Source: Chthoniobacteraceae bacterium
GTDB taxonomy: Bacteria > Verrucomicrobiota > Verrucomicrobiia > Chthoniobacterales > Chthoniobacteraceae
Length of the DNA stretch: 47,875 nucleotides
NCBI GenBank assembly: GCA_947471505.1
Contig: CANIWM010000048.1
Location: forward strand, 1-47,875
Reading direction: 5' to 3'
Position numbers and translations under genes: made by a program. Positions 19,601 through 33,558 of this stretch are shown piece after piece; the first letter of the stretch is position 1; every line of letters starts with the position of its first letter. Below the pieces are notes generated by a model that had not been told where the DNA came from, searched no databases, and saw nothing but the letters and a program-made list of their open reading frames with translations.

Positions 19601-20608
19601 ATCGCCGCGCTCCGCACAGAACGCGAAAACGCAGTCGCAGCACTCGCCGCAGCCGAACGCATTCACGCAAGCGCACTCGCCGAAGTTGAGCAGCGCTACC
19701 GCGACGGGCTCTCCGGCCCAGCTCGCGAGATGGAGCAGCTCCGAGTCGGTGCCGAGACGCTCCGCGCAGAACTCACCGTAGCTCGCAAGATGCAAGGCGA
19801 AGTCATGAACCTTCTCGAGAAGGAAAGGGAGCAATTCACCGCCGCCAAAGCCGAATGGGCGCGCAAGATCGAATCCGTCGATGAAGCTCGCCGCCAAATC
19901 GGCACCCGCCTCGACGATCGAGAACAAGCCATCCGCCTTCTCCAAGAAAAGCTCGGGCAAACCGACCATGTGCAAGACCGCCACAAAGCGGACCTCGCCG
20001 ACCTTCGCCAAGCCATCGACGCCGCCCGCCGCGAGAATGAGCAACTCGGAGCTCGCGCCGCCGCAAGCGAGCAACAATTGCGCGATGAAATCGCATCCCT
20101 CACTCAGAAGATGGAACAGCTCATCGGCGAGAAGCATCAACTCAACGCCCGGATGGAACAGCTCGACGCAGCTCAACGCGAGCAGTTGGAACTCGCTGCT
20201 GTAGAAACTCGCAATGCTCACGCAGCCCGCGAGGAAGTCGCCGCCGAACTCGAAGCTGAGCGCACCCGCCGCCAAGGCGACATCGCCGTCGCACTGCGCG
20301 ACCGCGACGAAGCCCTCCGCGCCGCCGGGCAGGAACTCACCCGCATCGAGCAAGAGCTCGCCCGCACTCGCGACCAACGCGATATTTTTAAGCGTGAGAA
20401 AGACGATCTTGCCCGTCGCGTCTCCCAAGTCACCGAGCAGCAAAAGCGAATGCTCGACGACATCGCCACCGGGCTAGGTCACACGCCTCCAAGCGCGCCG
20501 CGCCCCGTAACGCCGAGCGTGATCGAAGTGCCTGCCGAAGAGGGCAATATCCATCTCCAGCGCGTCCGGCCCGTCCCTATCCGTCCTCCGCAGGTGAAGA
20601 TTCTGTAG
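16622..20608 (+). CDS. Large coiled-coil protein, unknown function
   Basis: A 1328-aa protein. Residues 1-55 are basic and Lys/Pro/Ala-rich. Residues about 59-160 form a compact conserved-looking segment (LELGDFLHRIPAHLL, FDIGDLSDRIAKGQTTVAL, IEIRFPWQKL). After a Pro/Ala linker (about 165-285), about 1000 residues (286-1285) are almost unbroken Glu/Gln/Ala/Leu/Arg heptad sequence, i.e. a very long coiled coil. The tail is short and Pro/Val-rich. There is no signal peptide or membrane helix, so it is probably cytoplasmic, perhaps a structural or scaffold filament. SMC-like ATPase motifs are absent. The stop lies 4 bp from the convergent gene's stop. Confidence 0.85.
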   Translation: MKFLDRFKRKAPTEPPLPEQKRTQEQKKAAETPAANKPEGKGPGKFVPAPAPAPKKPTTSENDLRLELGDFLHRIPAHLLLPGPHDLKSELRFDIGDLSDRIAKGQTTVALAEIYRRVPTIFRGEILDSDNIEIRFPWQKLAKLVNLAKPIGQQSDAATASPMPALAEKLRSTKKAVRAIKTGESADEAGQTLQAATPPVLPGRNPGAKPATWFSKSTIEAAPVAPVEPPVATGNSGDMSAVTSAPLTLKLQTPPSDPAPEPADAKPLEPEAGPNIAEDMRFTDLPQETQRRFVTMKGEYERQIAEIQAQRKSITEAKDRANEEIESLKKELDRNLNLLAKEQTASSIGHDLVQHHQKEREELLAQIDALKAQIAASPASSTQDSADKDEQLASLTSERDALLQQKAYLSSQLAEMTNRRGAPSGGATSTQSQRQVDELQRRIALLESAQKEAAHELQREKEAKGKIEKLLATADRLQQESALHMDEIKGEMRKDVEAAFRKNIKDLEDQLAAARSVAHQPTVAPALEPTESSWQSEALVQMEADIESYRERMKVLIRERDEARDAALSQVEAISNDEILSLKQAVDEAKADAESKRAELEELRNNSAAELEGSRSCISDLQVELAAALEAAQTSEPVSALDTPEFAQLRADYEHANSLLAEIRRELAEQVSNQQQLSAEKDARIRELTESLESSRNAASNPQEFPDFSVEVENLRARQNEERQQFEVERKGLIEERSKAASGLQELSQSLQQQLQEIIEERDQLKAKLADLAADMEAESQAHEDLLTTLDKDHTSVVQAKEQLARQLAAAEEARHELEQLRGQYDPGLQAENARLRAELDEARRVRDEVQQALDTRTAALHENEASLTAITRDHQEISARLQEFEHLRNSAESESNQKIQELQSESNRLAARLAETEASLAQISGERHDLATNLAAMEQNASLEEKVANLERTSAAALEAERAAFAERLSAAEQERNTLQSSLHEVATYEHAIAALRTERENAVAALAAAERIHASALAEVEQRYRDGLSGPAREMEQLRVGAETLRAELTVARKMQGEVMNLLEKEREQFTAAKAEWARKIESVDEARRQIGTRLDDREQAIRLLQEKLGQTDHVQDRHKADLADLRQAIDAARRENEQLGARAAASEQQLRDEIASLTQKMEQLIGEKHQLNARMEQLDAAQREQLELAAVETRNAHAAREEVAAELEAERTRRQGDIAVALRDRDEALRAAGQELTRIEQELARTRDQRDIFKREKDDLARRVSQVTEQQKRMLDDIATGLGHTPPSAPRPVTPSVIEVPAEEGNIHLQRVRPVPIRPPQVKIL

Positions 20609-20612
20609 GTCG

Positions 20613-23600
20613 CTACGCCCGCTTAAATCCACGCATTGAGAGCGCCGCGAGCGCCATCAGCAGGCCCGTAAGAGCGAGTGTGGAGAAGCGGGCGAACCAT
20701 GAGGCGGTGCCGCGCGTTTTGGCTTCGATGCCGATTTGCAGGTCGGCTTGCGTGTCCACGGCGACGGAGCGGCTGAAGGTGAGCAGGCGGCCTTGCTCGG
20801 GGATGTTGGCCTGTATGACGGCGGGCGCGGAGACGGCGGCGTCTTGCTGCTGGATGAGGCGCTCGGCGAGCTTGGTATAAGCGGCATTGTCGTCGGCGCT
20901 GTTCCGATCAATCAGCGTCTTGGCTTCCTGCTGGCTGTAAGTGTTATCGCGATTTTCGGCGGCGCGGAGTTTGCCGGTGATAGCGTCGGCTTCGCCAGTC
21001 ACAGCCCCCTTTTGCACGTTGAGGCCGACGATGGCTTGCTGGAGCTTGAGGTTGTGGAGTTGCACGCGGGCGTCTTCGTTGAACGCTTGGTCGTGCTGGC
21101 TGAGGTTGAACGCATTTCCAAACGCTGCTCGCGCTTGTTGGGTGTTGCCTTGTTCGAGGGCTTTGTTGCCGAGCACGAGTTGTTGCTCGGCGGCTTTCGT
21201 CTTCTCCTTCTGCTGGCTCACTTCGCTGCTGAGGTAGCTCTGCACATCTATGGTCTGTGCGCGCTGGACGACTCGCTCTTCCTGCATTTGCAGCGTGCCG
21301 GTCCATTTGAAAACGTTCCACTTTTCGTTGAGATAGACGTTCCAGACGATGTTCTCCAGCGGCAGGTCGAACTTCGGCGCGAGGAGTTTCAAGTCGTCGG
21401 GTTTGCCGACTTGGCTGCTGTAAAAGAGCGTCACAGGGATCGCTTCGCCGCTCTTCGATTGCTGCTCCAATGGGATCAAAATCTGGTCCTTTTCCCGCCA
21501 AGGCCACACGCCGTTGCGGTTCACGTAGGCGAACCAAAAGGTCGCGTCTTTCGGCAGGGTCACGGCGAGGAGCCGCTTGTCGCCGGGCAGCATTTCCATG
21601 CGGACTTCGGTGAGCATCGCGCCGCTGTCGGCGATGACGGATTTGAGCGTGATGCTGTTCACCCGCGCAGGCAGGAGCTTCGTGGCCTCGTAGCGCTGGA
21701 GCGAAAAGGGGAGCACGAATGCGGGCTCCACGAGCCGGTAGGTAAAGCTCGCCGACGCTGCCGCGAGGTCTTGCAGCAATGCGCGCGGGATGCTCTGCCA
21801 CTCGGCTGGCTGGAGCGCGGGCGGCACTGCGGTGGCGCGGAGTTGGAGCCGCCCGGACGATTGCACGGTGACGAAGCCTCCCTGCTTATTCACGTCTGCC
21901 ACTTGCACGCCGACGATGCTCGTCTCCGCTGATTGTGGGGCGAGGGGCGTCTGGTAGGTCGCTTGCAGAAAGTATGCGCCGATGACGCGGCGGTGCAGCT
22001 TCACTTCCCACACGCCGTCTTTTCCCAGCAGGAAATCGGCGACCTGATCGCCAGTGAACTTCACGCTTTCCGCGCCTGCGGGCAGCGTCACGCGGAAGGA
22101 CTTCAGTCCGGTGTTCTCGATCTGATACTGGAGGTTCGCGGTCACTTTCACCTGCGCTTCGCCGATGAGCGCGTGCTGGAGGCTGGTGACTTGCACCCAC
22201 GCATCCACTTGCTCGACATCGAGCGCGAGGCTCCACGGCGTCTGCAATACGCGGAAGGCCAGGACGCCCTTTTGCTTGATGCCGGACTTCTGCGGATCGA
22301 GCTGCGTGACGCCTTCGCGCTTCGCGACTTGCAGGCGCATCCCTTGCTCGGGCACGACGACGAATGTGCCGCGTTGTTTCGATGCTTCGCGGAAGACGAG
22401 CTGCGGAGTCGGCCACGCTTTCACCGCTTTCATGCCGGGGCCGGTGAGCGAGATGGCGAACTGCTGCGCGCCCTCGGTGCGCCCGTTGAGGTGCATGGTG
22501 ATGATGCGCGCGTCGCCCGCCTTCGCCTCCGTCCAGTGGCTCACAGCCTTGCCCGCGATGGATTCCACATCCATCCCGGCGGGCAGCGCGAAGCTCAGTT
22601 TGAAAATGCCCGCGCGGGTGATTTCGACGTTCGCATTGATGGCGAGTAGCGTGCGGTCTTCGCCGAGCGAGAGCGTGTCCTGCGACTCCACGCGCACGTC
22701 CGGCTCGACGGCGGTGGCTTTCAAAATGGCGGTCGCTTTCACGTCGGAGTATCGGAACGAGCGCCGCACGGTGAGGCCGGGAATCTGGCTGGCCAGCGCG
22801 GTCGCGAGGTTGCCGGGGAAGTCTTCCAAATTGATCGCGGTGAGGGTCTGGGAGGCGACATCGTCGAGCTGCACTTCGTTGCCCGTGGCAAAGCCCACCA
22901 TGCCGATTTGCGTCGCCGCGCCGTCGAGCGCAATGAGCCCGACGCTTTGCGTGACGGGCAGCGGCCCGGTGGCGACTTGAGAGCGGATGAGCAGCGCAAA
23001 CGCCCGCGACTGCGCTGGCGCGATGCCGACGCGGAGCTTGCCGGTGTCGGGGTCGAAGCGCCATTGCGAGACGATGCCGACGGCCACTTTGTTGTCCTTC
23101 GCGGGGACGAGTGTGATGGGATCGATCACGTCTGTGATGGTCGCGCCTTTCGGCACGGAGAGGACGAGTTCTGCCAGTTCACCCTGCTCAGGCCGGACGG
23201 TCACATGATGCAGCCCTTCCACCGCGCCCGCCGTGGGCACGTAGAGCTGTGTCAACTCGGTGTGAAACTTGGCCTTCTCCCGCGAGATGTCGCGGCTGCG
23301 CGGCTTCCAGGCGATCCAAGCGTCGTTCGCCGGAGCCAAGACAAGCGTGGCGACGGTGTCCTTCTCGGGCCGAGTGCGGCTGACGGAAACGGCGTGTGGC
23401 GAGGACACGTCCACGTCGAGTTTGGCCAGCGTGAGCGTGAGGGAGTTCACGAGTCCGAACTGCGTGGGCAGCGTGAAGCCGCTCGCGCCGTCCCTCTTCG
23501 TCACTGCGATCTGATACGACAGCTCGACATCGAACGTGCCGGATTCCAGCGCGAGCAAATGTTGCGCGCGTTTCTTATCCGCAGTCGCGACGATGAGCTT

Positions 23601-26600
23601 CAGCGAGGCTTCGGGCATGGTGGCCTTTGTCAGAACGGCGGGGTCGAAGAGCAGCGGGAGACGCTGCCCTTTCTCCGCCTGCCAATGAATCTTCACCGTC
23701 GCCAGCGCGAACTTCTCATCCACACGAATCGTCTGCACGACAGTCTCGGCGACCGGCGCATCCTTCGGCAGTTCTTGCGCATTGCCAAACGCAACGAGCC
23801 CACAGACGAGCAGCGCGGCGACCGCGGTGCGGCGCAGCGAGCGGAGCGCGGGGATGGCGATGTGCAGCACGGCGAAGAATCCGATGACCGCAAAGAACCG
23901 GCCCGCGCCGTCCTCGGAGCGAAGCGCCGCCCACGCCAGCAAGAGCCAACCGAGCAAGAGGAACTCGCGCCGCGATTTAATCCACGAGTAAAGCCACGCG
24001 ACGACTGCAAGTAGCACGAGCCAGCCGCCGCCAAAGAAACTCTGCGGCGATTCTTCCACGGGGACGTTCGAGATTTCCGCCGTGAGCGCGCTGCCGGGCT
24101 GCTGCACGGGCGCGAGGAAGGCGACGGTGCTCGGCGCAGACTGGCGCTGATGATGCGATATATCCGCGAGGACGAAGAGCGCGTAGCACGCGATGAGGAA
24201 TGAGATGCAGCCGAGCGCCAGCCCTGTCGAGTAGCGCGCGGAGAACTTCGGAGCGCCCTTTGCCTTGCGCCAGGTGAAGATGGCCATGACGAGCAGAAAG
24301 AACACGCCGAAGAGCGCTGTCGTCGCCCGCGCACGGTCGTTCTCCAGCACCCGCGCGAGCATCGCGAACCCGGACGCATCCGTGAGGCCGCCGACGGGGG
24401 CCAGCGTGCCGCCGCGATACGTGAGGCGCTGCGCGGTGTCGGGCTCCAGCTTCCAGTCGGCGAGCATCACGGGGGCGCTCACGGTGGGCGTGGCGATGCT
24501 GAGATTGCGCGGGTCTTTGGCTCGCGAGGCAAACTTCAGTTTGATGGTGAGCACGGCGTTCGGGTCGGCTTGTTGTGGGAGCGGGATGAGGTTCGCGTTC
24601 GCATCGGTGACGGGCACGACGTTCGCGTCGTTCACCGTCGTGGACCAAAGCTGCGTGTCGGGCGGGAGCGAGACGCGGAAGTGCGAGTTGCCGCGATTTT
24701 TCACGAAGTAGTGCGCGTCGGTGACGGCCTGACCTTCCTTGGAAATGTGCGTGGTGAGCGAGGCGCGGTCCACGACTTGCCGGATGGAATCGCCCTGCGC
24801 CAGCGGACTCAGCTCCAGCTTCAAATCAAATGGCCGTGCAGCGTAGCGGTAGGCGGCGAGGATGGGTGCGTCGAAAAAGAGGCGGTATTCCGGCGGCACT
24901 TCGCCGGTCTCCAGCGGGAGCAATCCGGGCGAGACGGTGACGGGCTTCACGAGGAACTGATACGCGCTGATGACGAGCGTGTGGCCTTGCTCCGACTGCG
25001 CATCGAGCGGGCGCGCGCCGGTGAATGCCAGCGTGTCGCCCTGCGATTTGAACGGGCGCTCATACGTGGCGAGCAGCGTGTATGCGCCGCTCACGGGTGT
25101 GTGGAGCTGCACAAGAAATCCGCCGTCCGTCTTCTTCCAACTGCGGATGTCTTTGCCGACGAACTCGACATTAAAATACTCATCGGACAGCTCGACCTTG
25201 AACGCCGCAATCGGCGAGCCGGAGATGACGTAGTTCAGCACGCTGCTGCCATACGCGATGCCTTCGCCGATGGAGAAAAGGTGGAGCGCATCGGCTTGGA
25301 TGGACTGCGGGAGGCGCTCCACATTCAGCGTCGCGGCCCACGCGGGCTCGCTGAGGCGGAACGCAACTTGGATGCCTTGGATTTTGCGGGGGAAGAACGC
25401 TGTCGCCACTTCCGTGAGCGCCTGCGTGCGTCCGGCAGTGAGGCGGAACCCCGCATCGGCAGAGGCTGCGATGTGTCCGCGTGTGGACTTCGCCTTAACG
25501 ACTTCCACGCGAGGCAGCACCCACTCGGCGGCTCCGAGTGCGGCGTTGCGCTCGATGCGGAGTTGCACGATTTGCCGACCCGAGACGGGCTGGCCATAGA
25601 CGATGCCGATCTCCGATTCCGTGTCGGCATCGCGCTGGAAGTGGTCCACCATTCCCGCCGCCGTGAGCTTGGCGATGACGTAGCCTTTCGGCACGCGCAG
25701 GAGCAGTTCGCGGAGTGGGGCTTCGCGAATATCGAGTTCGAGTTCGGCGTCCACGCTCAGTTCGTTTTCGCCGTGATGATACACGAGGATTTCGGACACG
25801 GTGAGTTCTGGGAGGATTTGGTCTGCGCCGATGCGGAGGGCAAACTCTGCGCCGGAGAAGCGGTAGGCGAACCGCTGGGAGCTGTTCGTCGGGAAGACGG
25901 CTTTCGTGCGGTCTGTCTCGGGGAATTGTTCGGGCGAAACTTGGGATAGCCCTTTGGATTGCACGACTTCCAGCCGCACCGCGCCCGCATTCACGATGCG
26001 AAAGTAGCCGGAGAAGCGCGTGGCATTCTCGGGCCGAAGTTCCATCGCATCCACGGTCTGCGGGAATGCGCCGACGGGCGTTTGCGTCTTCACTTGGAGG
26101 GTGAAGGAGTCCTTCTGTGGTTGGTTAAAAGTGACGGTGAGTTTGCGCTCGTTGGGGTTTGCGCCGGGCTCGACTTTTTGGCCGAGGACGTGGTCGCCGA
26201 CGACGCTGGTCAGCTCGCCCGCGCCGCGCAGGAGGATGACGACGCTGGAGAGTTCGCCTTGCATCACGCGGTAGTCGAGCAGCGCCGTTTGCCGCATGAT
26301 TCCTGGGCCGACGCTGATTTGCGTGAGCATCTCGGCTGCGTAGAAAAGGCGGCCTTCGGCTTCGGGCGGCGCGGTTTTCCACGAGAGCTTCACGCTGCCA
26401 TCGGGTGGGAGGAAGCTCTGGAAGTTTTCGCCGACGCGCTCAGGCCGCGCGGCGCCGGCGAAGTCGAATTGCGTGTCGGCTGCGAGCCCTTGCAGCGCGA
26501 TGGGCTGGAGCGCGCTCGGTGCGACGCGGAAGTTCACGGAGTTCCACGGGCCATTCTGATTCACGGCGGCGTTGAACTTAAACGACACGGGATACTCGCC

Positions 26601-27509
26601 CGCTTTGTCGAAGTTCAGCACGTAGCGCCCGGCGGTGGCGGTAATGCGCCAGTCGGCGTGCTTCGGGAGTTCTGTGAGCGCGATGCCGCCGGAGAGGAGT
26701 GTGAGCGAGCCGCCTTTGGGGTTCGCGACGCGCGCGGTGGCGGTGAGGACGAATGCGGCGTTGGGCGCGGCGAGTTGGCCGGTGAGCTTGAAGTCTCGGA
26801 GGACGACTTGGCGTGTCTCGGGATCGGCGATGGAGATTTTGAGCGGGAGCGTATAGGCTGCGCCGTGGAACTGAAATGCCAGCGGCTCGGGGTCTTCGGG
26901 TGGCAATATCCCGCGCATGGGCTCGGGGAGATATTTGGGTTCGAGAGGCAGGAGTCCGGTCGCGCCTTCCACCTTTACGTCGAAGTCGGGCGTGGCTTCG
27001 ACGCGCACGAATCCGTTGAAAAGTCCGGCTTGTGGGGGAGTCACCGTGAAGCTGGCGACGGGCGATTTCCACGTCTTCATGTCGCGCTCGGCGATGATGG
27101 TGATGGTGAGTTGCGCGAGCGGCTTGTCGCCTTTCTTGGGCCGTAGAATCAGCGTGCGGGGACCTCCGGGCTCTTGGCGGATGCCCCAGTCTTGCAGCCC
27201 TTCGCCGGTGACTTCTTTGAGTTCGCCTTCGCCTGCGAGGGTGAGCGTGAGTTCCTTCGGCTCGCCTTGGAGGATGTCGAGCGTGGCCTCGATGGTCGTG
27301 CGGATTTTCTCGCGCGAGACGCGCGTCCATTGGCGGACGCTGGTGGAGTAGATGATCTTTTGCTCGGTCGTCGGTGCGCCGAAAGTGCCTTCGATGGTGA
27401 GCTTGGCTTTGCCGTCGGCGACGCCGCCTTGGATGGCGAGGTCTTTGACTTCGGCGGTCTGCGCGAAAGCGAGCAGTGGTGCGAGGATGAGTGCGAGGAT
27501 GTGTTTCAT
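20613..27509 (-). CDS. Giant (2298-aa) membrane-anchored beta-rich protein with internal duplications
   Basis: Starts with a signal peptide (MKHILALILAPLLAFAQ). Residues about 20-1055 are beta-strand-rich and probably extracytoplasmic. A cluster of about six hydrophobic segments lies at about 1063-1246, the last of which (TAVAALLVCGLVAFGNAQ) looks like an internal signal peptide. Residues about 1247-2265 are again beta-rich, with a coiled-coil stretch near 2110-2150, and a final helix at about 2272-2292 is followed by a basic tail. Strong internal repeats exist: AFR..(E/T).W...L.VE.. ... GAY.L.ATY..P occurs at about 713-830 and again at about 1749-1860. It follows the VWA gene by 156 bp on the same strand and is probably its partner. 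No known family was recognised. Confidence 0.85.
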   Translation of the reverse strand: MKHILALILAPLLAFAQTAEVKDLAIQGGVADGKAKLTIEGTFGAPTTEQKIIYSTSVRQWTRVSREKIRTTIEATLDILQGEPKELTLTLAGEGELKEVTGEGLQDWGIRQEPGGPRTLILRPKKGDKPLAQLTITIIAERDMKTWKSPVASFTVTPPQAGLFNGFVRVEATPDFDVKVEGATGLLPLEPKYLPEPMRGILPPEDPEPLAFQFHGAAYTLPLKISIADPETRQVVLRDFKLTGQLAAPNAAFVLTATARVANPKGGSLTLLSGGIALTELPKHADWRITATAGRYVLNFDKAGEYPVSFKFNAAVNQNGPWNSVNFRVAPSALQPIALQGLAADTQFDFAGAARPERVGENFQSFLPPDGSVKLSWKTAPPEAEGRLFYAAEMLTQISVGPGIMRQTALLDYRVMQGELSSVVILLRGAGELTSVVGDHVLGQKVEPGANPNERKLTVTFNQPQKDSFTLQVKTQTPVGAFPQTVDAMELRPENATRFSGYFRIVNAGAVRLEVVQSKGLSQVSPEQFPETDRTKAVFPTNSSQRFAYRFSGAEFALRIGADQILPELTVSEILVYHHGENELSVDAELELDIREAPLRELLLRVPKGYVIAKLTAAGMVDHFQRDADTESEIGIVYGQPVSGRQIVQLRIERNAALGAAEWVLPRVEVVKAKSTRGHIAASADAGFRLTAGRTQALTEVATAFFPRKIQGIQVAFRLSEPAWAATLNVERLPQSIQADALHLFSIGEGIAYGSSVLNYVISGSPIAAFKVELSDEYFNVEFVGKDIRSWKKTDGGFLVQLHTPVSGAYTLLATYERPFKSQGDTLAFTGARPLDAQSEQGHTLVISAYQFLVKPVTVSPGLLPLETGEVPPEYRLFFDAPILAAYRYAARPFDLKLELSPLAQGDSIRQVVDRASLTTHISKEGQAVTDAHYFVKNRGNSHFRVSLPPDTQLWSTTVNDANVVPVTDANANLIPLPQQADPNAVLTIKLKFASRAKDPRNLSIATPTVSAPVMLADWKLEPDTAQRLTYRGGTLAPVGGLTDASGFAMLARVLENDRARATTALFGVFFLLVMAIFTWRKAKGAPKFSARYSTGLALGCISFLIACYALFVLADISHHQRQSAPSTVAFLAPVQQPGSALTAEISNVPVEESPQSFFGGGWLVLLAVVAWLYSWIKSRREFLLLGWLLLAWAALRSEDGAGRFFAVIGFFAVLHIAIPALRSLRRTAVAALLVCGLVAFGNAQELPKDAPVAETVVQTIRVDEKFALATVKIHWQAEKGQRLPLLFDPAVLTKATMPEASLKLIVATADKKRAQHLLALESGTFDVELSYQIAVTKRDGASGFTLPTQFGLVNSLTLTLAKLDVDVSSPHAVSVSRTRPEKDTVATLVLAPANDAWIAWKPRSRDISREKAKFHTELTQLYVPTAGAVEGLHHVTVRPEQGELAELVLSVPKGATITDVIDPITLVPAKDNKVAVGIVSQWRFDPDTGKLRVGIAPAQSRAFALLIRSQVATGPLPVTQSVGLIALDGAATQIGMVGFATGNEVQLDDVASQTLTAINLEDFPGNLATALASQIPGLTVRRSFRYSDVKATAILKATAVEPDVRVESQDTLSLGEDRTLLAINANVEITRAGIFKLSFALPAGMDVESIAGKAVSHWTEAKAGDARIITMHLNGRTEGAQQFAISLTGPGMKAVKAWPTPQLVFREASKQRGTFVVVPEQGMRLQVAKREGVTQLDPQKSGIKQKGVLAFRVLQTPWSLALDVEQVDAWVQVTSLQHALIGEAQVKVTANLQYQIENTGLKSFRVTLPAGAESVKFTGDQVADFLLGKDGVWEVKLHRRVIGAYFLQATYQTPLAPQSAETSIVGVQVADVNKQGGFVTVQSSGRLQLRATAVPPALQPAEWQSIPRALLQDLAAASASFTYRLVEPAFVLPFSLQRYEATKLLPARVNSITLKSVIADSGAMLTEVRMEMLPGDKRLLAVTLPKDATFWFAYVNRNGVWPWREKDQILIPLEQQSKSGEAIPVTLFYSSQVGKPDDLKLLAPKFDLPLENIVWNVYLNEKWNVFKWTGTLQMQEERVVQRAQTIDVQSYLSSEVSQQKEKTKAAEQQLVLGNKALEQGNTQQARAAFGNAFNLSQHDQAFNEDARVQLHNLKLQQAIVGLNVQKGAVTGEADAITGKLRAAENRDNTYSQQEAKTLIDRNSADDNAAYTKLAERLIQQQDAAVSAPAVIQANIPEQGRLLTFSRSVAVDTQADLQIGIEAKTRGTASWFARFSTLALTGLLMALAALSMRGFKRA

Positions 27510-27530
27510 AGGTGTGAGTTGGTTAGCGAA

Positions 27531-27648
27531 GTGGTGCAGGCGACTCGCCTGCATTGTCTCGAAGGCGACTCGCCTGAGTGTGTGATGTCCCTTTGGGACT
27601 TCCGGCGGGTCGCCGGTCAGGACTTTGCAGGCGGGTCGCCTGCACCAC
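27531..27648. repeat. Palindromic intergenic repeat between the VWA and giant genes
   Basis: Arms 27531-27553 (gtggtgcaggcgactcgcc plus four bases) and 27626-27648 are reverse complements with one mismatch in 23. The short palindrome aggcgactcgcct recurs three times (near 27539, 27563 and, with one change, 27629), so each arm is itself a hairpin. This is a REP-like intergenic element; similar 'VVQATRL'-coding palindromes occur in Verrucomicrobia genomes (recalled). It may stabilise or end the upstream transcript. Confidence 0.75.
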
Positions 27649-27665: not shown

Positions 27666-30600
27666 TCATCGGCCTGAGATGCTCTTGGCTTGCCGGATCA
27701 TCCATTCGAGTTTCGCGGGGCGCGGGTCGGCTCCGTAGATGGCGGGGATGCCGTTGACCATTCCGAGTAGGCGGTCGGTGGTGACTTCGGCGGCGTAGGG
27801 GCTTTGCGCGAGGAACTCGGAGAATGCGGCGGCGGTGGCGGCGAGTTTGAGGCTGGTGCTGCTTTGCTCCAGCGCCGGTGCGGGCTGGGTAAAGGGGACG
27901 GTCCACTCGTGCTCGTGGTAGTCGCCGGTGCCGGGGACTTTGAAGCGGACGCGCACGGTGGCCACGTCGCCGGTGCCGCGTGGGTTCACTTCGATGGCGT
28001 AGAGCGCGTTGCCAGATTCTGCGGCTCCGATCTCGGCGGCGTCCACGGTGTTGTCGCGGAACTGCTCTTTTTTGAGCTGATGTTTCGCGTAGCCGAGCTG
28101 GCGGTAAGCGATGACGCGCGCAGGGTTGAACTCGACTTGCACCTTCACATCCGAGGCGGCGACGCGGAGGGCTCCGGCGAGCTGCCCGGCGAACTCGGTG
28201 GCGGCGGCTTCGGGGGTGTTGATGAAGCCGTAGCGGCCATCGCCGTTGCGCGAGAGTTGCTCAAGAAGGTCGTCGTTGTAGCCTTCCCAGCCGATGCCGA
28301 AGCAGTCGAACGCGACGCCTTGTTTGCGGTGGCGCTCCACTTTTTCTTTCAGCGCGGTGGCGCTCACGTTGCCGAGATTTGCTGCGCCGTCGGTCATCAG
28401 GACGACGCGGTTCACGCTGCCGACTTGGTAGTGCTTGAGGGCGGTGGTGTAGCCGAGGTCCATCGCTGCGCCGAGGTCGGTGCCGCCTTGCGGGGTGATC
28501 TCGCCGACGCGCGCGGTGAACTCGCTGGCTTTGTCGCCGGTGACGCCATCGGCCCAGAGCCTTGGTGTGCGGGCGAAAGTGATGATGCTCAGTTTGTCGG
28601 CGGGCTGGAGTTGCTTGGCGAGGACGGTGAGCGATTCTTTCAAAATGCGGACGCGGTCAGCGCGCTCCATCGAGCCCGAGTTGTCGAGCAGCAGGACGAT
28701 ATTGAGCGGGCGTCCGGGCTGGCGACCAGCGGCGGCGGTCTTTACCGAGAGGCGGAGGAGGTCGCGGTTTTGGGCGAAAGGATAGCGCGCCCGCTCGGCG
28801 GCAAATGCCAGCGGCGCACCGGGCGCGGCTTCGGGGTCGCGGTAGTCGAGAGCGTTGATGAACTCCTCGCTGCGCACGCTGGCTACGTCGGGCATCGCGC
28901 CCTTTTCTAGCGCGGCTCCGGCGAGCTTGAAGGACACGTCGCTGACGTTGAGGGAGAAGGTGGAGAAGGCGTTGTCTTTGGTGGTGACTTCGGGCTGCGG
29001 AGTCGGCGGCGGCTCGGTGGGCTTTTGCGGCGCGGCTGGCTCGGCGAGTTGCTTTTGCACTTCGGCGACGGGCTTCTCGTCGGCCTTTTTCCCTTTTTCG
29101 GCGAGCTTTGGCAAATCCACGCTGTCGGAGAAATCTTCGGCATCTTTGATGGCGGCGAGCCTCTTCACGGGGGCTTGGGCTTTGTCCCGCTCGACGCCTT
29201 GCAGGGCTTGGATGGGTTCGCGTTTCGCGAGGGTAAATGTGGATGTGGATGCTGTCTGCGAGACGATGTCCACTTGTGGCATGGGCGCAGTCGGTTGGAG
29301 CTTCGACTCGTCGGTGAGTTGGTGGAGGGATTCAAGCTGGGGCTCGGTGATCGCACTCGTGCCTGCGGTGCCGAAGAGCAGCGCATCAATCGCGTTTTCG
29401 CTGATGGCGAGGGAGCCGCTGCGGTTGCCTGCGGTGATCGGCTTTCCTGCGACGGGTGCGGTGAAGTCCTGGGTGGGCGTTGGGGCGTTGGTGGTGACTT
29501 TTCGCGTCGAGAAGATCGGCTGGTTGATGACGGAGGGCGTGATCACGTTCACGGTCTCGACGCCGTTTGCATCCTTCGAGGTTGTTTGGATGGGCGATCC
29601 GTAGTTGATGAAGCCCTCGAACTCGACCGCTTGCGGAGCGAGGTCGAGGTCCGCGGCTGCTTGATCCCCCCATTGCTGCGCTGGGACAAGTGTGCCGCCC
29701 GTGACGGTCAGCGTCCCTGCTCCTACGCTCGTCACGCCTTCGTAGCGGTTGCCGCCACTGACAGTGAGTGTGCCTGCTCCTTCGCGCGTCAGCGCTGGGG
29801 CATCTCCATTCACTGCGGTAGCTCCGCGTCCATTCCCGCCATCCAGCGTGCCGAACCAAGTTTGCCCTGCGGGCGGAGCGGGCGCTGCCTTTTGCTCGAA
29901 GACGTAATCGGAAGTCACATCGAAGCCCAACGCCGTATTCGGTGTCGCCTGCGTCGGGGTGCGGCCAAAGCGCGTCTCGGTTTCAGGAGCGGAGGCCATT
30001 CCTTTGGGCACGGGGACTTCTTCACCGGCTGAGGTTGCGCCGGAGGCTTTGGATTTATTAACGATTTCGACAGTCCTTTTGTCGAAGCGGCGGTAGGGCC
30101 GTTCCCATTCTTTCGACACCTCCCACATCGCTTGCTCGCGGGTGCTCTCTTGGGCGACTTCGCCCAATTGCTCCTTCTCCTCCGCGATCCCCGATCGGCG
30201 TTTCTCAGCGGCGAAGTTGTAGCGGTCTCTGCTGAGGGCTTTCTGCGCGGCGATGTCTGCGAGGTCGAAGCGTGCGAGGTCTTGATACTGCTGCGCATCG
30301 AGATGATCCTGCTTCATCTCCTCCACCTTTTGGCGGAAGTTCGGTGTCAGCTTCTTATTGTAGATGTCTGGCGCTTCGAGGTTCGAGAGGAGCTTGATTG
30401 CTCTGGGGGAGTCGGGATTTTGTTGCAGGACTTCTTTCAGCGAGTCCGCAGCGGCGAGATTTTCTCCTTTGGTGATTTGTTCTTCCGCCAGCCGCAGTCC
30501 GGCTTCCGTCAGCCCACGCTTTGCATCCTCGCGACTGGCGGCGGTGGCGGGAGCATCCGGGGTGCTTGCGGCGGCGTTCTTGTAGTGTGAGAAGGCGGCT

Positions 30601-32171
30601 TCGTTGTCGTTCGCTTTGAGGGCTTCGCGACCTTTGGCGATCTCATCGCGGCCTAGCGATTCCCGTTGTATCCGGCGATGGAGTTCGCGCTCGGCGGTAA
30701 CTTCGGTTTTGGCGGGACTCGCTGTAGAAAAAGGCGCGAGCGGACCGTTGATGTTTATTTTCCCAGCGGTCGAGAGCGGTTCGGAAATCGCAGAGGGCTC
30801 CACGACGGGTATCGCAAACAAATTGAGCACGGGCGGCAGGGCTGGTGGGGGAGTGGCAGGGCCGGAGGTGGGTGTGCGGGCGGCGAGTTCATCCCCCAGC
30901 GCAACGTTCGCGTCCGCAGGATTGGTGGTCGGCGCGTTCCCGAGGGTTCCTCCGTTGGTGAAAAAGGAGCGGTTGTCGGCGACTGCGAGCCCGTCTGTGG
31001 TGGCGGTACCGTCGGCTGTCAGCGCAGTGCCGATGCCACCGAAGACTCTCGGTGCGGGAGTGTAAATCTTCGCTTTAACTTCAGCGTCCGTTCGCTGTTT
31101 GCCGTCGCCCTCGCGAAATAACTGGCTCGTCGCTGACGATAGCGAAGTGGTGGCTGGGTGTCCGGGGAACTTTTGCAAACGTTCGTCACGATCTGCAATC
31201 GCTCCGAAGTCTTCTGCCTTCCCGGCAGTCTCTCCAAATGCCCAGTGGTTCGTGGCTGTGACGGGCGGAGTCTTCAGACCTTCGCCGCGAGCGGCACTGA
31301 AGCCGGCGTTATCCGCCTTCGCGAGAGTGCTGCCCGCTCCGCCAGCAGAAAAACCATCCACATGTCGGGAAAGGCCGGAGTCGAAATTGGATACGAACCC
31401 GTGCGCAACCGGTGCGCCGCCACCGACTCCCAATCCTGATTGGTCCCCGCCCTCAGCGGGAGCGGCGGACGGGAGGTAGATGCCGTTGCTTTGAGCGGGT
31501 GTGGGGTTGGGCTTTGATTCGGCGTAGAGGGCGAAACTCTTGGTCGCGACAGATGCATCAGGCGGTGCGGCAGCCTCGGGTGAGGGGTGCATTTTGTCAC
31601 TGCCCCCCCGTGACGTTCCTCGGGGCAGCTCGATCTCCTTGGAAATCTTGCCGGACTGGCTCGCCCAGCCTCGGTTCATCCCATCGCTATCCCCGTCCAC
31701 CGCGTATCTCCGCATCGCTGGCCCACTGCGCATCTTTGCATACACGGGAAAGCAAATCGCCACGCCGGTGACGAATACCACCGAAGCCGCCAGTCCCATC
31801 GGCACCATCCATTTCCAATCGCGGCGAGGCTTCCGACGCACGGGCGTTGGCAGTAGCTTGGGCGTCTCGCCCATGTGCGCGCGCTCTTCATGGGCGGGAC
31901 GCCCAAGCCACTTCCCCCGAAAGGTCGCCAGCAATTTCTCCCGCCGCTCTTTTGAAAGTGACAGCGGCTCGGCTGGGGCCGTCTGCTCGGGGAGGGTGCG
32001 GGCCTCGCGCAGTAGGTCCACGGCGTGGCGGAGGCGGGCGTGCAGGGCGCTCAGTTCTGGGTCGGCTGCGATTCGGGCGTGTAAAGCGGCGGCTTCAGCG
32101 GGCGAGAGTTCGCCCATGAGGAGGGCGGTGATGCGCAGCTCTAGTTCTTCGCGTGGTGTGAGTGGGTTCAT
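27666..32171 (-). CDS. Anti-sigma-like / von Willebrand factor A membrane protein (YfbK/DUF3520 type), mosaic
   Basis: 1501 aa. Residues 1-60 look like the helical N-terminus of an anti-sigma factor (LRITALLMGELSPAEAAAL); one membrane helix lies at about 121-143. The extracytoplasmic part includes a Verru_Chthon-like span (about 450-478, PVVEPSAISEPLSTAGK), a TPR-like helical region (about 500-700), an autotransporter-like repeat (about 790-825, GAGTLTVSGG) and a secretin-like span (about 830-885, VEFEGFINYGSPIQT). The C-terminus is a YfbK-type unit: FSTFSLNVSDVSF, a VWA domain with intact MIDAS (D1163-x-S-x-S, T1231, D1261), and a DUF3520-like tail. The start is fixed by an AAGGAGG six bases upstream. 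It follows the ECF sigma gene and precedes the giant gene, so it is probably the membrane sensor and sigma regulator. Confidence 0.88.
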   Translation of the reverse strand: MNPLTPREELELRITALLMGELSPAEAAALHARIAADPELSALHARLRHAVDLLREARTLPEQTAPAEPLSLSKERREKLLATFRGKWLGRPAHEERAHMGETPKLLPTPVRRKPRRDWKWMVPMGLAASVVFVTGVAICFPVYAKMRSGPAMRRYAVDGDSDGMNRGWASQSGKISKEIELPRGTSRGGSDKMHPSPEAAAPPDASVATKSFALYAESKPNPTPAQSNGIYLPSAAPAEGGDQSGLGVGGGAPVAHGFVSNFDSGLSRHVDGFSAGGAGSTLAKADNAGFSAARGEGLKTPPVTATNHWAFGETAGKAEDFGAIADRDERLQKFPGHPATTSLSSATSQLFREGDGKQRTDAEVKAKIYTPAPRVFGGIGTALTADGTATTDGLAVADNRSFFTNGGTLGNAPTTNPADANVALGDELAARTPTSGPATPPPALPPVLNLFAIPVVEPSAISEPLSTAGKININGPLAPFSTASPAKTEVTAERELHRRIQRESLGRDEIAKGREALKANDNEAAFSHYKNAAASTPDAPATAASREDAKRGLTEAGLRLAEEQITKGENLAAADSLKEVLQQNPDSPRAIKLLSNLEAPDIYNKKLTPNFRQKVEEMKQDHLDAQQYQDLARFDLADIAAQKALSRDRYNFAAEKRRSGIAEEKEQLGEVAQESTREQAMWEVSKEWERPYRRFDKRTVEIVNKSKASGATSAGEEVPVPKGMASAPETETRFGRTPTQATPNTALGFDVTSDYVFEQKAAPAPPAGQTWFGTLDGGNGRGATAVNGDAPALTREGAGTLTVSGGNRYEGVTSVGAGTLTVTGGTLVPAQQWGDQAAADLDLAPQAVEFEGFINYGSPIQTTSKDANGVETVNVITPSVINQPIFSTRKVTTNAPTPTQDFTAPVAGKPITAGNRSGSLAISENAIDALLFGTAGTSAITEPQLESLHQLTDESKLQPTAPMPQVDIVSQTASTSTFTLAKREPIQALQGVERDKAQAPVKRLAAIKDAEDFSDSVDLPKLAEKGKKADEKPVAEVQKQLAEPAAPQKPTEPPPTPQPEVTTKDNAFSTFSLNVSDVSFKLAGAALEKGAMPDVASVRSEEFINALDYRDPEAAPGAPLAFAAERARYPFAQNRDLLRLSVKTAAAGRQPGRPLNIVLLLDNSGSMERADRVRILKESLTVLAKQLQPADKLSIITFARTPRLWADGVTGDKASEFTARVGEITPQGGTDLGAAMDLGYTTALKHYQVGSVNRVVLMTDGAANLGNVSATALKEKVERHRKQGVAFDCFGIGWEGYNDDLLEQLSRNGDGRYGFINTPEAAATEFAGQLAGALRVAASDVKVQVEFNPARVIAYRQLGYAKHQLKKEQFRDNTVDAAEIGAAESGNALYAIEVNPRGTGDVATVRVRFKVPGTGDYHEHEWTVPFTQPAPALEQSSTSLKLAATAAAFSEFLAQSPYAAEVTTDRLLGMVNGIPAIYGADPRPAKLEWMIRQAKSISGR

Positions 32172-32177
32172 CGGTGG

Positions 32178-32184
32178 CCTCCTT
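32178..32184 (-). promoter_or_regulatory. Shine-Dalgarno of the VWA gene
   Basis: Minus-strand AAGGAGG lies six bases before the ATG at 32171. It decides the start of the 1501-aa protein. Most other genes in the window lack such a strong site, so this gene is probably translated efficiently despite the long repeat-filled leader. Confidence 0.7.
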
Positions 32185-32190
32185 CGAGAT

Positions 32191-32340
32191 TGCCGGATAC
32201 CGGAGCGTGAGTCTCGCGTGCGGGGTGCCTTTCTCTGAAGGCGTGCGTCTCGCTCCCCGGCAGGATGCCGGCGAGGACGGGCTGGAAGCCCGCGCTCCCC
32301 GGCACATGTCCCTTCGCATCGCCGTGATGTATGCGGTTCA
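32191..32340. repeat. 150-bp direct repeat, copy A
   Basis: Identical to 32431-32580 except at four positions (32224, 32301, 32329 and 32333), with a spacing of exactly 240 bp. It contains palindromes such as gccggcaggatgccggc-like arms and cgggctggaagcccg. It is an intergenic repeat and not a gene: in translation it gives the recurrent spurious 'FQPVLAGILPG' peptide. Confidence 0.85.
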
Positions 32341-32417
32341 TTGGTAGTTCTGTGGAGGGGGGAAATGTGAGCCAGCCGAGAAGAAGGGTGCGGGGGAGCG
32401 CGGGCTTCCAGCCCGCT

Positions 32418-32440
32418 GTATCCGGCATCCTGCCGGATAC
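32418..32440. repeat. Perfect 10-bp hairpin joining the two 150-bp copies
   Basis: gtatccggca (32418-32427) and tgccggatac (32431-32440) pair perfectly around a 3-base loop. The right arm is the first ten bases of copy B. Just upstream, 32391-32415 is an inverted copy of part of the repeat (partner near 32518-32543), so the spacer between copies A and B is built from inverted pieces of the same element. Confidence 0.8.
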
Positions 32441-32580
32441 CGGAGCGTGAGTCTCGCGTGCGGAGTGCCTTTCTCTGAAGGCGTGCGTCTCGCTCCCCGG
32501 CAGGATGCCGGCGAGGACGGGCTGGAAGCCCGCGCTCCCCCGCACATGTCCCTTCGCATCGCCGTGATTTATCCGGTTCA
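32431..32580. repeat. 150-bp direct repeat, copy B
   Basis: Second copy, 146 of 150 bases identical to 32191-32340. The near identity implies a recent duplication or gene-conversion event in the leader between the sigma gene and the VWA gene. Confidence 0.85.
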
Positions 32581-32597
32581 CTTTCGGGGGTAAAAAG

Positions 32598-32932
32598 AAC
32601 CCTTCAACAGGTTCAGGGAAGAATGTTCCAGGCTCCATCAACCCTTCGACGGAGCTGGAAGGAAACCTTTTCACCTCCGTCAACCCTTCGACGGAGCTGG
32701 AAGGAAACCTTTTTACCTCCATCAACCCTTCGACGGAGCTGGAAGGAAACCTTTTCACCTCCATTAACCCCTCGACGGAGCTGGAAGGAAACCTTTTCAC
32801 CTCCATTAACCCCTCGACGGAGCTGGAAGGAAACCTTTTCACCTCCGTAACCCTTCGACGGAGCCGGGAAGAAACCTTTTTACCTCCGCCAACCACTCGG
32901 TGGGGCTGGAACGAAACCTCCCTTGGTCTGTC
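32598..32932. repeat. Tandem array of eight 42-bp units
   Basis: Units start at 32598, 32640, 32682, 32724, 32766, 32808, 32849 and 32891, a period of 42 (one step of 41). The core is cccttcgacggagctggaag, an imperfect palindrome with ccttc/gaagg ends. Middle units are nearly identical and outer units diverged; the first (cccttcaacaggttcaggg) resembles a palindrome widespread in bacterial intergenic DNA. It lies in the 838-bp gap between the sigma and VWA genes, which otherwise holds only the 150-bp repeats. Confidence 0.9.
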
Positions 32933-33009
32933 AATCAGTTCGGAGATAGGGCGACTTTGTGTTTTGCAGTCGCGAGTGGTTGCTGGGGGCTGGGTGATTT
33001 GCGTCGGGT

Positions 33010-33558
33010 TCACCGTGCCACCTCCGTATTGGCCAACTCGGCAGCCATTGCTTTGAGCGCGTGGTGGAGGAGGTAGCCGACGTGGCCGACTTTGAGCCCC
33101 GTCTTTTCCGCGATCTCGCCGTAGGAAAGATCGTCGTCGAAGCGCAGACGGATGATCTCTTTACTCCGCTCGTCGAGGGTCTCCAAGACGAGGCGGATGA
33201 GGCCGATACTTTCGCCTCGGGCGATTTGCTCATCGGGCATGGGCTGGGGGTCGGCGGCATCCTCCATCGGAGCGTCTTCCTCGTTGCCCGCGAGCACCAT
33301 TTTCGAGGAACGGCGCTGGTGGTCCACGACGAGATTGTGGACGGTGCGGTAGAGCCAAGGCTGGGGCTGGCGGACGGTTTCAAATTGCGTGTGAAGTTTC
33401 ATAAATGCCTCCTGAACGACATCCTCCGCCGTGCTGAAATCGCCGAGCAATCGCCGGGCATACGCCAGCAACGGCGACTCCAGAGCAGTAAAAACCTGCT
33501 CGGTCGTCTCCCACTGTGGCGCAGGCGTGCTCGGGTCGTCCGGTGTCTTCACGGCCAT
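33010..33558 (-). CDS. RNA polymerase sigma factor, ECF (sigma-70 family)
   Basis: A 182-aa ECF sigma factor. Region 2 spans about 22-88, with the core-binding DVVQEAFMKL (46-55) and the -10 recognition helix around PWLYRTVHNLVVDHQRR (67-83). An acidic linker follows, then region 4 (about 118-172) with LDERSKEIIRLRF and the helix-turn-helix LSYGEIAEKTGLKVGHVGYLLHHA. It is the first gene of the sigma / VWA / giant-protein row on the minus strand. The next gene starts with an anti-sigma-like segment, so this sigma factor is probably held at the membrane by that protein. Target promoters cannot be told from the window. Confidence 0.93.
   Translation of the reverse strand: MAVKTPDDPSTPAPQWETTEQVFTALESPLLAYARRLLGDFSTAEDVVQEAFMKLHTQFETVRQPQPWLYRTVHNLVVDHQRRSSKMVLAGNEEDAPMEDAADPQPMPDEQIARGESIGLIRLVLETLDERSKEIIRLRFDDDLSYGEIAEKTGLKVGHVGYLLHHALKAMAAELANTEVAR

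Follow-up and report, generated by a model that had tools for sequence, protein, structure and literature searches.

Bacteria commonly monitor their envelope through pairs of sigma and anti-sigma factors, and the targets of anti-sigma ectodomains are often unknown. Excerpts of three reports describe the nearest precedents: the periplasmic part of the anti-sigma factor PupR holds a secretin/TonB (STN) subdomain, whose fold is common with the signalling domain of its partner (PMC7186176), FoxA shields the anti-sigma factor FoxR from proteolysis (PMC11637429), and PilY1 is a proposed surface sensor with a VWA domain that is tied to type IV pili (PMC9210963). Here we describe P0001, a mosaic protein encoded on the reverse strand (27666–32171) of a 47,875-nt stretch of a Chthoniobacteraceae bacterium (contig CANIWM010000048.1, assembly GCA_947471505.1); the whole stretch is called the window and coordinates refer to it. 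P0001 joins an anti-sigma-like N-terminus to a YfbK-type VWA end through a linker patched together from pieces that resemble machine components, and comparison with its homologues gives good support to recurrent, donor-restricted capture into this linker, whose ends stay while the middle turns over.

The open reading frame (ORF) of P0001 comprises 1501 aa and, like all features of the protein given below, lies on the reverse strand. It begins with an anti-sigma-like region (residues 1–115, approximate end point, 31827–32171), followed by a predicted transmembrane segment (~residues 122–144, 31740–31808, approximate and read from the sequence), and closes with a VWA domain (residues 1157–1323, 28203–28703) and a YfbK C-terminal region (residue 1334 onward, 27669–28172). 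Three Pfam models place the protein among the YfbK-type VWA proteins, each above its cut-off (vWF_A 46.1 vs 25 bits; VWA 55.3 vs 23.8; YfbK_C 108.7 vs 25). At the N-terminus, profile matches were weak: the NCBIfam scan gave NF010501 at E 0.0018, under its cut-off, and NF052375 was matched by three of seven homologues (from genomes G018, G031 and G004, E 6.7e-9 to 3.6e-7), also under cut-off. The anti-sigma identity is supported because the adjacent gene encodes an extracytoplasmic function (ECF) sigma factor. Residues 1–115 contain no cysteine and so lack HxxxCxxC, the motif of the zinc-binding anti-sigma (ZAS) subgroup. A hydropathy scan of the homologues found a single membrane span after the N-terminal domain (in P0001 by reading only), and because there is one hydrophobic span, we infer that the linker lies outside the cytoplasm, in the periplasm.

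The ~900-aa middle between these conserved ends is a patchwork of three secretin pieces, two Verru_Chthon cassette A pieces and one autotransporter-type repeat. From the N-terminal side, these are cassette A piece 1 (residues 330–392, 30996–31184), cassette A piece 2 (residues 448–482, with PVVEPSAISEPLSTAGKIN, 30726–30830), secretin piece 1 from the TPR region (residues 477–712, 30036–30743), the TIGR02601 repeat (residues 794–824, 29700–29792), secretin piece 2 (residues 832–895, from VEFEGFINYGSPIQT to VINQPIFSTRKVTT, 29487–29678) and secretin piece 3 (residues 904–952, with GNRSGSLAISENAIDALLFG, 29316–29462), which is out of order relative to piece 2. The repeat was located by NCBIfam, and the other five pieces by local profiles, made from 11 secretins and 9 cassette A proteins, and by an own-genome donor; cassette A piece 2 and secretin piece 1 were found by NCBIfam as well, and the latter was also modelled. 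On the local secretin profile, residues 477–712, 832–895 and 904–952 align to positions 22–259, 722–785 and 572–619, so that the last two pieces stand in reversed order compared with a secretin, while residues 330–392 and 448–482 align to positions 317–376 and 1053–1087 of the cassette A profile. Residues 397–428 gave a weak extra secretin-profile stretch (independent E-value 0.07), which is unproven. Neither local profile matched any of 790 shuffled linkers (60-aa windows).

In the NCBIfam scan, the secretin family NF042912 (Amuc_1098_fam) matched P0001 at E 1.5e-53 in three stretches (best, residues 486–706 on profile positions 20–242), and TIGR02600 (Verru_Chthon_A) matched at E 9.8e-19 in two (best, residues 448–485 on positions 1045–1082). 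Whole-protein scores were 182.1 bits against a cut-off of 750 for the secretin and 66.8 against 332.3 for cassette A, so that P0001 belongs to neither family; both scores fall far under the full-length cut-offs, and the pieces are therefore fragments. No Pfam match to the secretin core PF00263 was found in P0001 up to E 1. The repeat scored above its NCBIfam cut-off (22.8 vs 19.85 bits) and under that of PATR, the Pfam model of the same repeat (21.5 vs 27). A model of secretin piece 1, from an alignment of eight sequences, predicts that the TPR region keeps its helical-repeat fold (mean pLDDT 75, pTM 0.47; 15 of 26 ten-residue blocks at ≥82), and no solved structure matched secretin piece 2 alone up to E 1.

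A preliminary description of this stretch, made from its letters, had proposed secretin-like spans without the core, a span like cassette A, a YfbK-type VWA end and an anti-sigma-like N-terminus. The whole-protein scans cover the three spans it had singled out for profile search and confirm them as significant matches to the families it named, and the VWA end was likewise borne out; the N-terminal assignment has weak profile matches and is supported by the neighbouring sigma factor gene. The permuted secretin piece, the second cassette A piece and the autotransporter repeat go beyond that description.

Candidate donors for the secretin and cassette A pieces are encoded in the same genome (G000), a 6.07-Mb draft in 153 contigs. 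At E ≤0.001, P0001 matched one secretin gene (contig C3), one cassette A gene (C7), two VWA proteins (C20 and C2) and nothing else there, and a search with the cassette A model returned only the cassette A gene and P0001. The secretin showed 63, 68 and 65% identity to its pieces (by alignment, 61% for piece 1, 71% for piece 2 and 38% over 106 columns around piece 3), and the cassette A protein 51 and 73%. The full length of the donors and the nesting of pieces in the secretin tree lead us to infer a direction from machine gene to linker. Comparison of 15 genes with donor loci by blastn gave 187 matches from 12 genes at 65–93% identity (146 of them within 65–80%), among which those of ≥88% spanned just 27–50 nt; no long match of high identity, and thus no junction showing the mechanism of capture, was found among these genes.

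A search of 57 genomes (including its own) with P0001 gave matches in 53 at E ≤0.001, in most of which, among the matches listed, secretin-like or VWA-like stretches stood alone. Both the anti-sigma end and the VWA end were matched, on the same basis, in G006, G003, G004, G018, G024 (taken as Chthoniobacter flavus Ellin428) and G031; homologues in G009 and G033 have an open 5' end and are cut at a contig end, respectively. The preliminary description had suggested a comparison of orthologues, which reveals that P0001 is not a one-gene oddity: homologues have conserved ends and often different captured middles. The G006 homologue is 88% identical over the whole length of P0001 and repeats its layout of secretin and cassette A pieces, with the autotransporter repeat under cut-off. 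The C. flavus middle contains ~490 aa of secretin and autotransporter repeats, that of G018 a cassette A piece and a secretin TPR piece that has diverged, that of G009 a short secretin piece, that of G031 cassette A pieces, that of G003 an autotransporter repeat and a weak cassette A piece (E 0.0048) and that of G004 an autotransporter repeat. In a further protein (G002:C128), presumed to be a member as the contig lacks its VWA end, scrambled cassette A pieces precede a secretin piece.

We extended the comparison by scanning named genomes with the C-terminal alignment and two peptide patterns, an approach that favours close relatives. The best 80 of 101 loci were retained, all with verrucomicrobial record titles and most from metagenome bins, and 74 linkers were scanned for families after removal of L176, L181, L189, L190 and L199 (cut short or without a VWA start) and of L196 (a relative of L194). 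In a scan with 18,950 NCBIfam families and an E threshold of 0.01 (counts are among the matches listed, 25 of 34 families, and families overlap), these linkers matched the Amuc_1098 secretin (24), GspD (11), EpsF chain-length (15), CspC-type chain length (12) and, with 8 each, two other chain-length families; cassette A and the autotransporter repeat had 6 each, and pilin models 2, 1 and 1. Pfam gave TPR families, Secretin (7), Secretin_N (6), PATR (6), Wzz (5) and STN (4), together with single matches such as LysM and FliL. Nine linkers scanned singly yielded piece positions, with L180 lacking any piece, and chain-length pieces occupy a common position before the VWA domain in L128, L129, L132, L134, L137, L142 and L148 (L128 and L142 by eye and motif only).

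For shorter marks, we used 79 linkers (the 80 loci less L189 and L199, plus P0001). Local profiles found secretin pieces in 32 and cassette A pieces in 7 of them, profiles and motif patterns together at least one mark in 52, and the secretin motif type LGDxPxxGxLF occurred in 13/79 linkers against 0/790 shuffles. As a strict autotransporter pattern caught just 2/79, the profile count of 6/74 is used instead. As judged from similarity, the in-frame pieces thus match pilus/type II secretins and cassette A, in homologues also chain-length proteins and pilin-like stretches, and, in addition, surface-protein repeats. Short xVGYx motifs, which resemble the start of verrucomicrobial exported proteins, were also seen in six linkers (L128, L134, L137, L139, L182 and L187; 6/79 vs 5/790 shuffles). 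Record names deserve caution: the metagenome bins behind L122, L131, L159 and L160 are titled Prosthecobacter debontii or Akkermansia muciniphila, names that look unreliable, and L131 and L159/L160, all titled A. muciniphila, separate on the VWA tree.

Phylogenetic analysis pointed to repeated capture. The TPR-region tree holds 30 sequences, 21 secretins and 9 VWA-protein pieces chosen from the 14 sequences with a match to this region (L157, L183, L192, L195 and L196 were left off). The pieces of G000 and G006 form a supported clade (100/96) with the secretins of these two genomes and of G009, and another (96/91) unites the C. flavus piece with the two secretins of its own genome; the pieces of G009 and G018 sit on very long branches with uncertain placement. 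Supported branches alone force at least three changes between secretin and captured piece, which supports repeated capture from each lineage's own secretin. On a tree of 77 VWA regions, 63 of which have complete linkers and were scored, the changes required, against the mean for shuffled labels, were 13 vs 20.9 for secretin presence (28 positives), 6 vs 9.5 for the TPR piece (10 positives), 8 vs 11.2 for the LGD motif (12), 3 vs 4.9 for cassette A (5) and 6 vs 7.7 for the strict chain-length motif (8), which misses members such as L137. Change counts below the shuffled values indicate both inheritance and turnover of pieces, although such counts cannot separate gain from loss.

Pilin-like stretches are a further component of some linkers, and their profile support is modest. 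In L134, L135, L150 and L187, the membrane segment continues into a pilin-looking NNLRxxxxxKxQWA. An 85-aa query from L135 had matches among the short ORFs of 10 of 12 other genomes, with a best E of 2e-17; the example that was read, from G024, contains GGFTLVEIMIVVAIIALLAAIAVPNF and has the look of a prepilin. When ten segments were scanned singly, two had a pilin match at E ≤0.01, L187 (GspG, 4e-5) and L150 (PilA, 4e-4), and five had pilin-type matches at E 0.016 to 0.2 (L134, L164, L142, L138 and L135). The prepilin cleavage/methylation signal TIGR02532 was absent from P0001; among the ten segments it appeared only in L187, whose 12.1 bits fall short of the cut-off of 16.3. A juxtamembrane motif of LPALAKAK type occurred in 15/79 linkers against 2/790 shuffles and did not cluster on the VWA tree, where its 13 positives need 13 changes and shuffled labels 12 on average.

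P0001 is the middle member of a conserved verrucomicrobial three-gene cluster, presumably an operon, of an ECF sigma factor, the anti-sigma-like VWA protein and a ~2300-aa protein. In the window, the sigma factor gene (33010–33558, reverse strand; Pfam and NCBIfam) lies upstream and a 2313-aa protein (20613–27554, reverse strand) downstream, both at conserved positions. Of 63 loci that allowed the test, 58 have a same-strand ECF sigma gene no more than 1.5 kb upstream (the five misses include L143 and L145, in which it overlaps a start codon taken too early, and L178, in which it is downstream), and a ~2300-aa protein starts within 2.5 kb downstream in 60 of 64. The giant protein appears free of captured pieces: the window's own copy matched no Pfam or NCBIfam family above cut-off and none of the captured-piece families, and none of 63 homologues, some incomplete, matched a local secretin or cassette A profile. 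An NCBIfam scan of 44 C-terminal stretches (from the window, 42 homologues and the outside protein L112) found the secretin and the autotransporter repeat in one member each, probably L112, which carries a secretin piece and comes from a separate contig. Between the sigma and mosaic genes, window positions 32191–32936 hold a tandem array with a 42-nt unit, in about seven register copies, and a 150-nt sequence present twice at 97% identity, and a 281-aa ORF listed at 32168–33013 is probably spurious. On the opposite strand, 16622–20608 encode a 1328-aa protein with SMC-type coiled-coil matches under cut-offs.

Captured pieces are not confined to this family. Among ten VWA anti-sigma paralogues scanned at E 0.05, one has a secretin piece (L118, E 2.2e-6) and one an autotransporter repeat (L119, E 3e-4). 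In G006:C40, a stretch that resembles a secretin by eye had no profile match at E 0.05, and its DNA matches the genome's own secretin over 56 nt (75%, E 7e-4). Some other proteins in G024, G033 and G031 also carry secretin pieces, and the linker is therefore a favoured and not the sole landing place. These include two large proteins with a secretin N-domain stretch mid-protein (L113, 3724–8544 in G024:C52; L114, 6134–9967 in G033:C600), a protein with the look of an M56/BlaR1-type sensor, by eye and from its motif, followed by secretin core and N-domain pieces (L115, 1770–5006 in G024:C62), and L112 (598–4686 in G031:C336), a giant-protein C-terminal part whose secretin piece is accompanied by an autotransporter-like repeat seen by eye.

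As for what the pieces might do, we judge it quite possible, not far short of an even chance, that through its linker the anti-sigma factor is coupled to trans-envelope machines of its own cell, by analogy with the STN subdomain of PupR and with the shielding of FoxR by FoxA. Lying in the periplasm, the compartment of the captured parts in their donors (including cassette A, which we take to be pseudopilin-like), the linker could act as bait. Through the captured parts, the anti-sigma factor may attach to the machines' assembly partners or quality-control proteases, or compete for these; a changed assembly state would then expose it to proteolysis and free the sigma factor, with the VWA domain and the giant protein supplying the conserved part of the switch. 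A bolder proposal, which we rate somewhat lower, is that the family, across the phylum, repeatedly re-copies pieces of the cell's pilus, secretion and exopolysaccharide machine genes into the linker as a self-mimicry sensor, the bait being refreshed as the machines evolve. The pieces with a recognised donor come from trans-envelope machines or surface repeats, a bias that speaks against random accretion. Several observations weigh against a sensory role for the pieces. None of the tested marks was found in 27/79 linkers, so no piece is required; three of the ten segments scanned singly (L153, L158 and L169) had no pilin match up to E 1, and the Pfam scan of the 74 linkers returned no pilin family. 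Between G000 and G006, the two closest genes, the ratio of non-synonymous to synonymous substitution rates (dN/dS; bootstrap ranges in brackets) is alike for all donor pieces (0.59 (0.44–0.83)) and other linker stretches (0.71 (0.45–1.24)), and the pieces are far less constrained than residues 1051–1330, which include the VWA domain (0.14 (0.07–0.25)), or than the secretin genes themselves (0.06). The TPR piece has a ratio of 0.76 (0.43–1.54) and the stretch with secretin piece 2 one of 0.30 on 72 codons, without an interval. Across 15 homologue pairs, the linker ratio exceeded the VWA ratio in 11 of the 11 with both values finite, some alignments being surely non-homologous. The captured pieces are thus weakly constrained, which argues against a strict function.

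This relaxation, in pieces and spacer alike and in the linkers of other pairs, is what would be expected if a tolerant, mostly disordered spacer gained functionless in-frame fragments by illegitimate recombination or gene conversion and slowly lost them, a serious alternative that we rate only slightly less likely than the coupling of linker and machines. Donors would then seem restricted since the spacer tolerates only parts of exported, soluble, often repeated proteins. Synonymous divergence between G000 and G006 is very uneven along the gene (dS 0.016 at residues 713–792, 0.096 in the TPR piece, 0.25 at 1051–1330 and 0.53 at 447–484), which points to recombination in the gene, as expected of such a region; the very long branches of the G009 and G018 pieces look like decay, and the secretin pieces in other proteins of relatives fit as well. 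Yet the 12 genomes searched hold few secretins above the Amuc_1098 cut-off (one in nine, two in one and none in two, with more secretin-like ORFs below it), whereas 24 of 74 linkers hold such pieces, and exported enzymes appear, among the matches listed, only through single-member matches to the murein-enzyme models MltD, NlpD and ActS, taken to be the one LysM domain seen by Pfam. The giant cluster protein lacks such pieces, though it perhaps lacks a tolerant spacer, and none of the captures behind the 187 DNA matches is young enough to reveal a mechanism of this kind. An ancestral fusion with domains of secretin and chain-length type, or a small number of such fusions, passed down and gradually eroded, would explain the common place of the chain-length pieces before the VWA domain in seven linkers and the 13 changes in secretin presence against 20.9 in shuffles; we consider this improbable, as TPR pieces are scattered over several places in the secretin tree, pieces are permuted in P0001 and G002:C128, the same donors give different parts in different lineages, and the chain-length motif, even if it misses L137, changes six times for eight positives (shuffled 7.7). 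Slightly less improbable, though still unlikely, is a mechanosensor embedded in the pilus, in which the pilin-like membrane segment and pseudopilin-like pieces would bring the protein into the pilus or pseudopilus, with the VWA domain sensing force or surface contact as proposed for PilY1. Pilin-looking membrane or juxtamembrane segments in several homologues and the enrichment of the LPALAKAK-type motif (15/79 vs 2/790) speak for it, as does published VWA-based surface sensing by PilY1 (PMC9210963, in excerpt); against it, the NCBIfam scan found no pilin match in P0001, only two of ten homologous segments (L187 and L150) reached E ≤0.01, P0001 and the ten segments have no prepilin cleavage site above the TIGR02532 cut-off, and Pfam matched no PilY1-type domain in P0001. 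Finally, the window comes from a 153-contig draft and most homologues from metagenome bins, so that assembly or gene calling might have joined unrelated genes; this we reject as exceedingly improbable, given that the layout recurs at 88% identity in a second genome (G006), that the isolate C. flavus Ellin428 has a comparable mosaic inside a 321-kb contig (L130), and that long open frames and gene order are conserved in dozens of loci.

On the coupling reading, the gene may itself disclose, through the pieces it has captured, which machines are its targets. If the pieces are functional, recurrent capture of fragments within a genome would let a sensor keep pace with its target; should they be neutral, these linkers form an unusually clear natural record of bacterial gene-fragment capture at one defined site from donors of the same genome. 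In either case, a match to a secretin or cassette A model is no ground for annotating a protein of this family as either.

No description of such an architecture was found among the open-access papers listed, as judged by titles and the beginnings of abstracts, with most subscription papers outside this scope. With the YfbK-type VWA proteins (PF12450 / VWA / PF12034), P0001 shares the vWF_A, VWA core and YfbK C-terminal regions, but it is fused to an anti-sigma-like N-terminus, a membrane segment and a ~900-aa captured middle. The Amuc_1098-type type IV pilus secretin (NF042912) is the donor of three pieces, and P0001 differs from it in lacking the secretin core; Verru_Chthon cassette protein A (TIGR02600) is the donor of two, and P0001 differs in scoring far under the full-length cut-off. 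PilY1 has a VWA domain in common with P0001, and no other shared domain was found here; PilY1 is not known to be an anti-sigma factor and has a C-terminal PilY1 domain, of which P0001 showed no Pfam match. P0001 likewise had no Pfam match to FecR or STN up to E 1, and STN occurred in 4 of the 74 homologous linkers. The cell-surface-signalling anti-sigma factors PupR, FoxR and FecR resemble P0001 in their ECF sigma gene partner and single membrane span; unlike them, P0001 carries many species-variable pieces from several machines and a VWA domain at its end.

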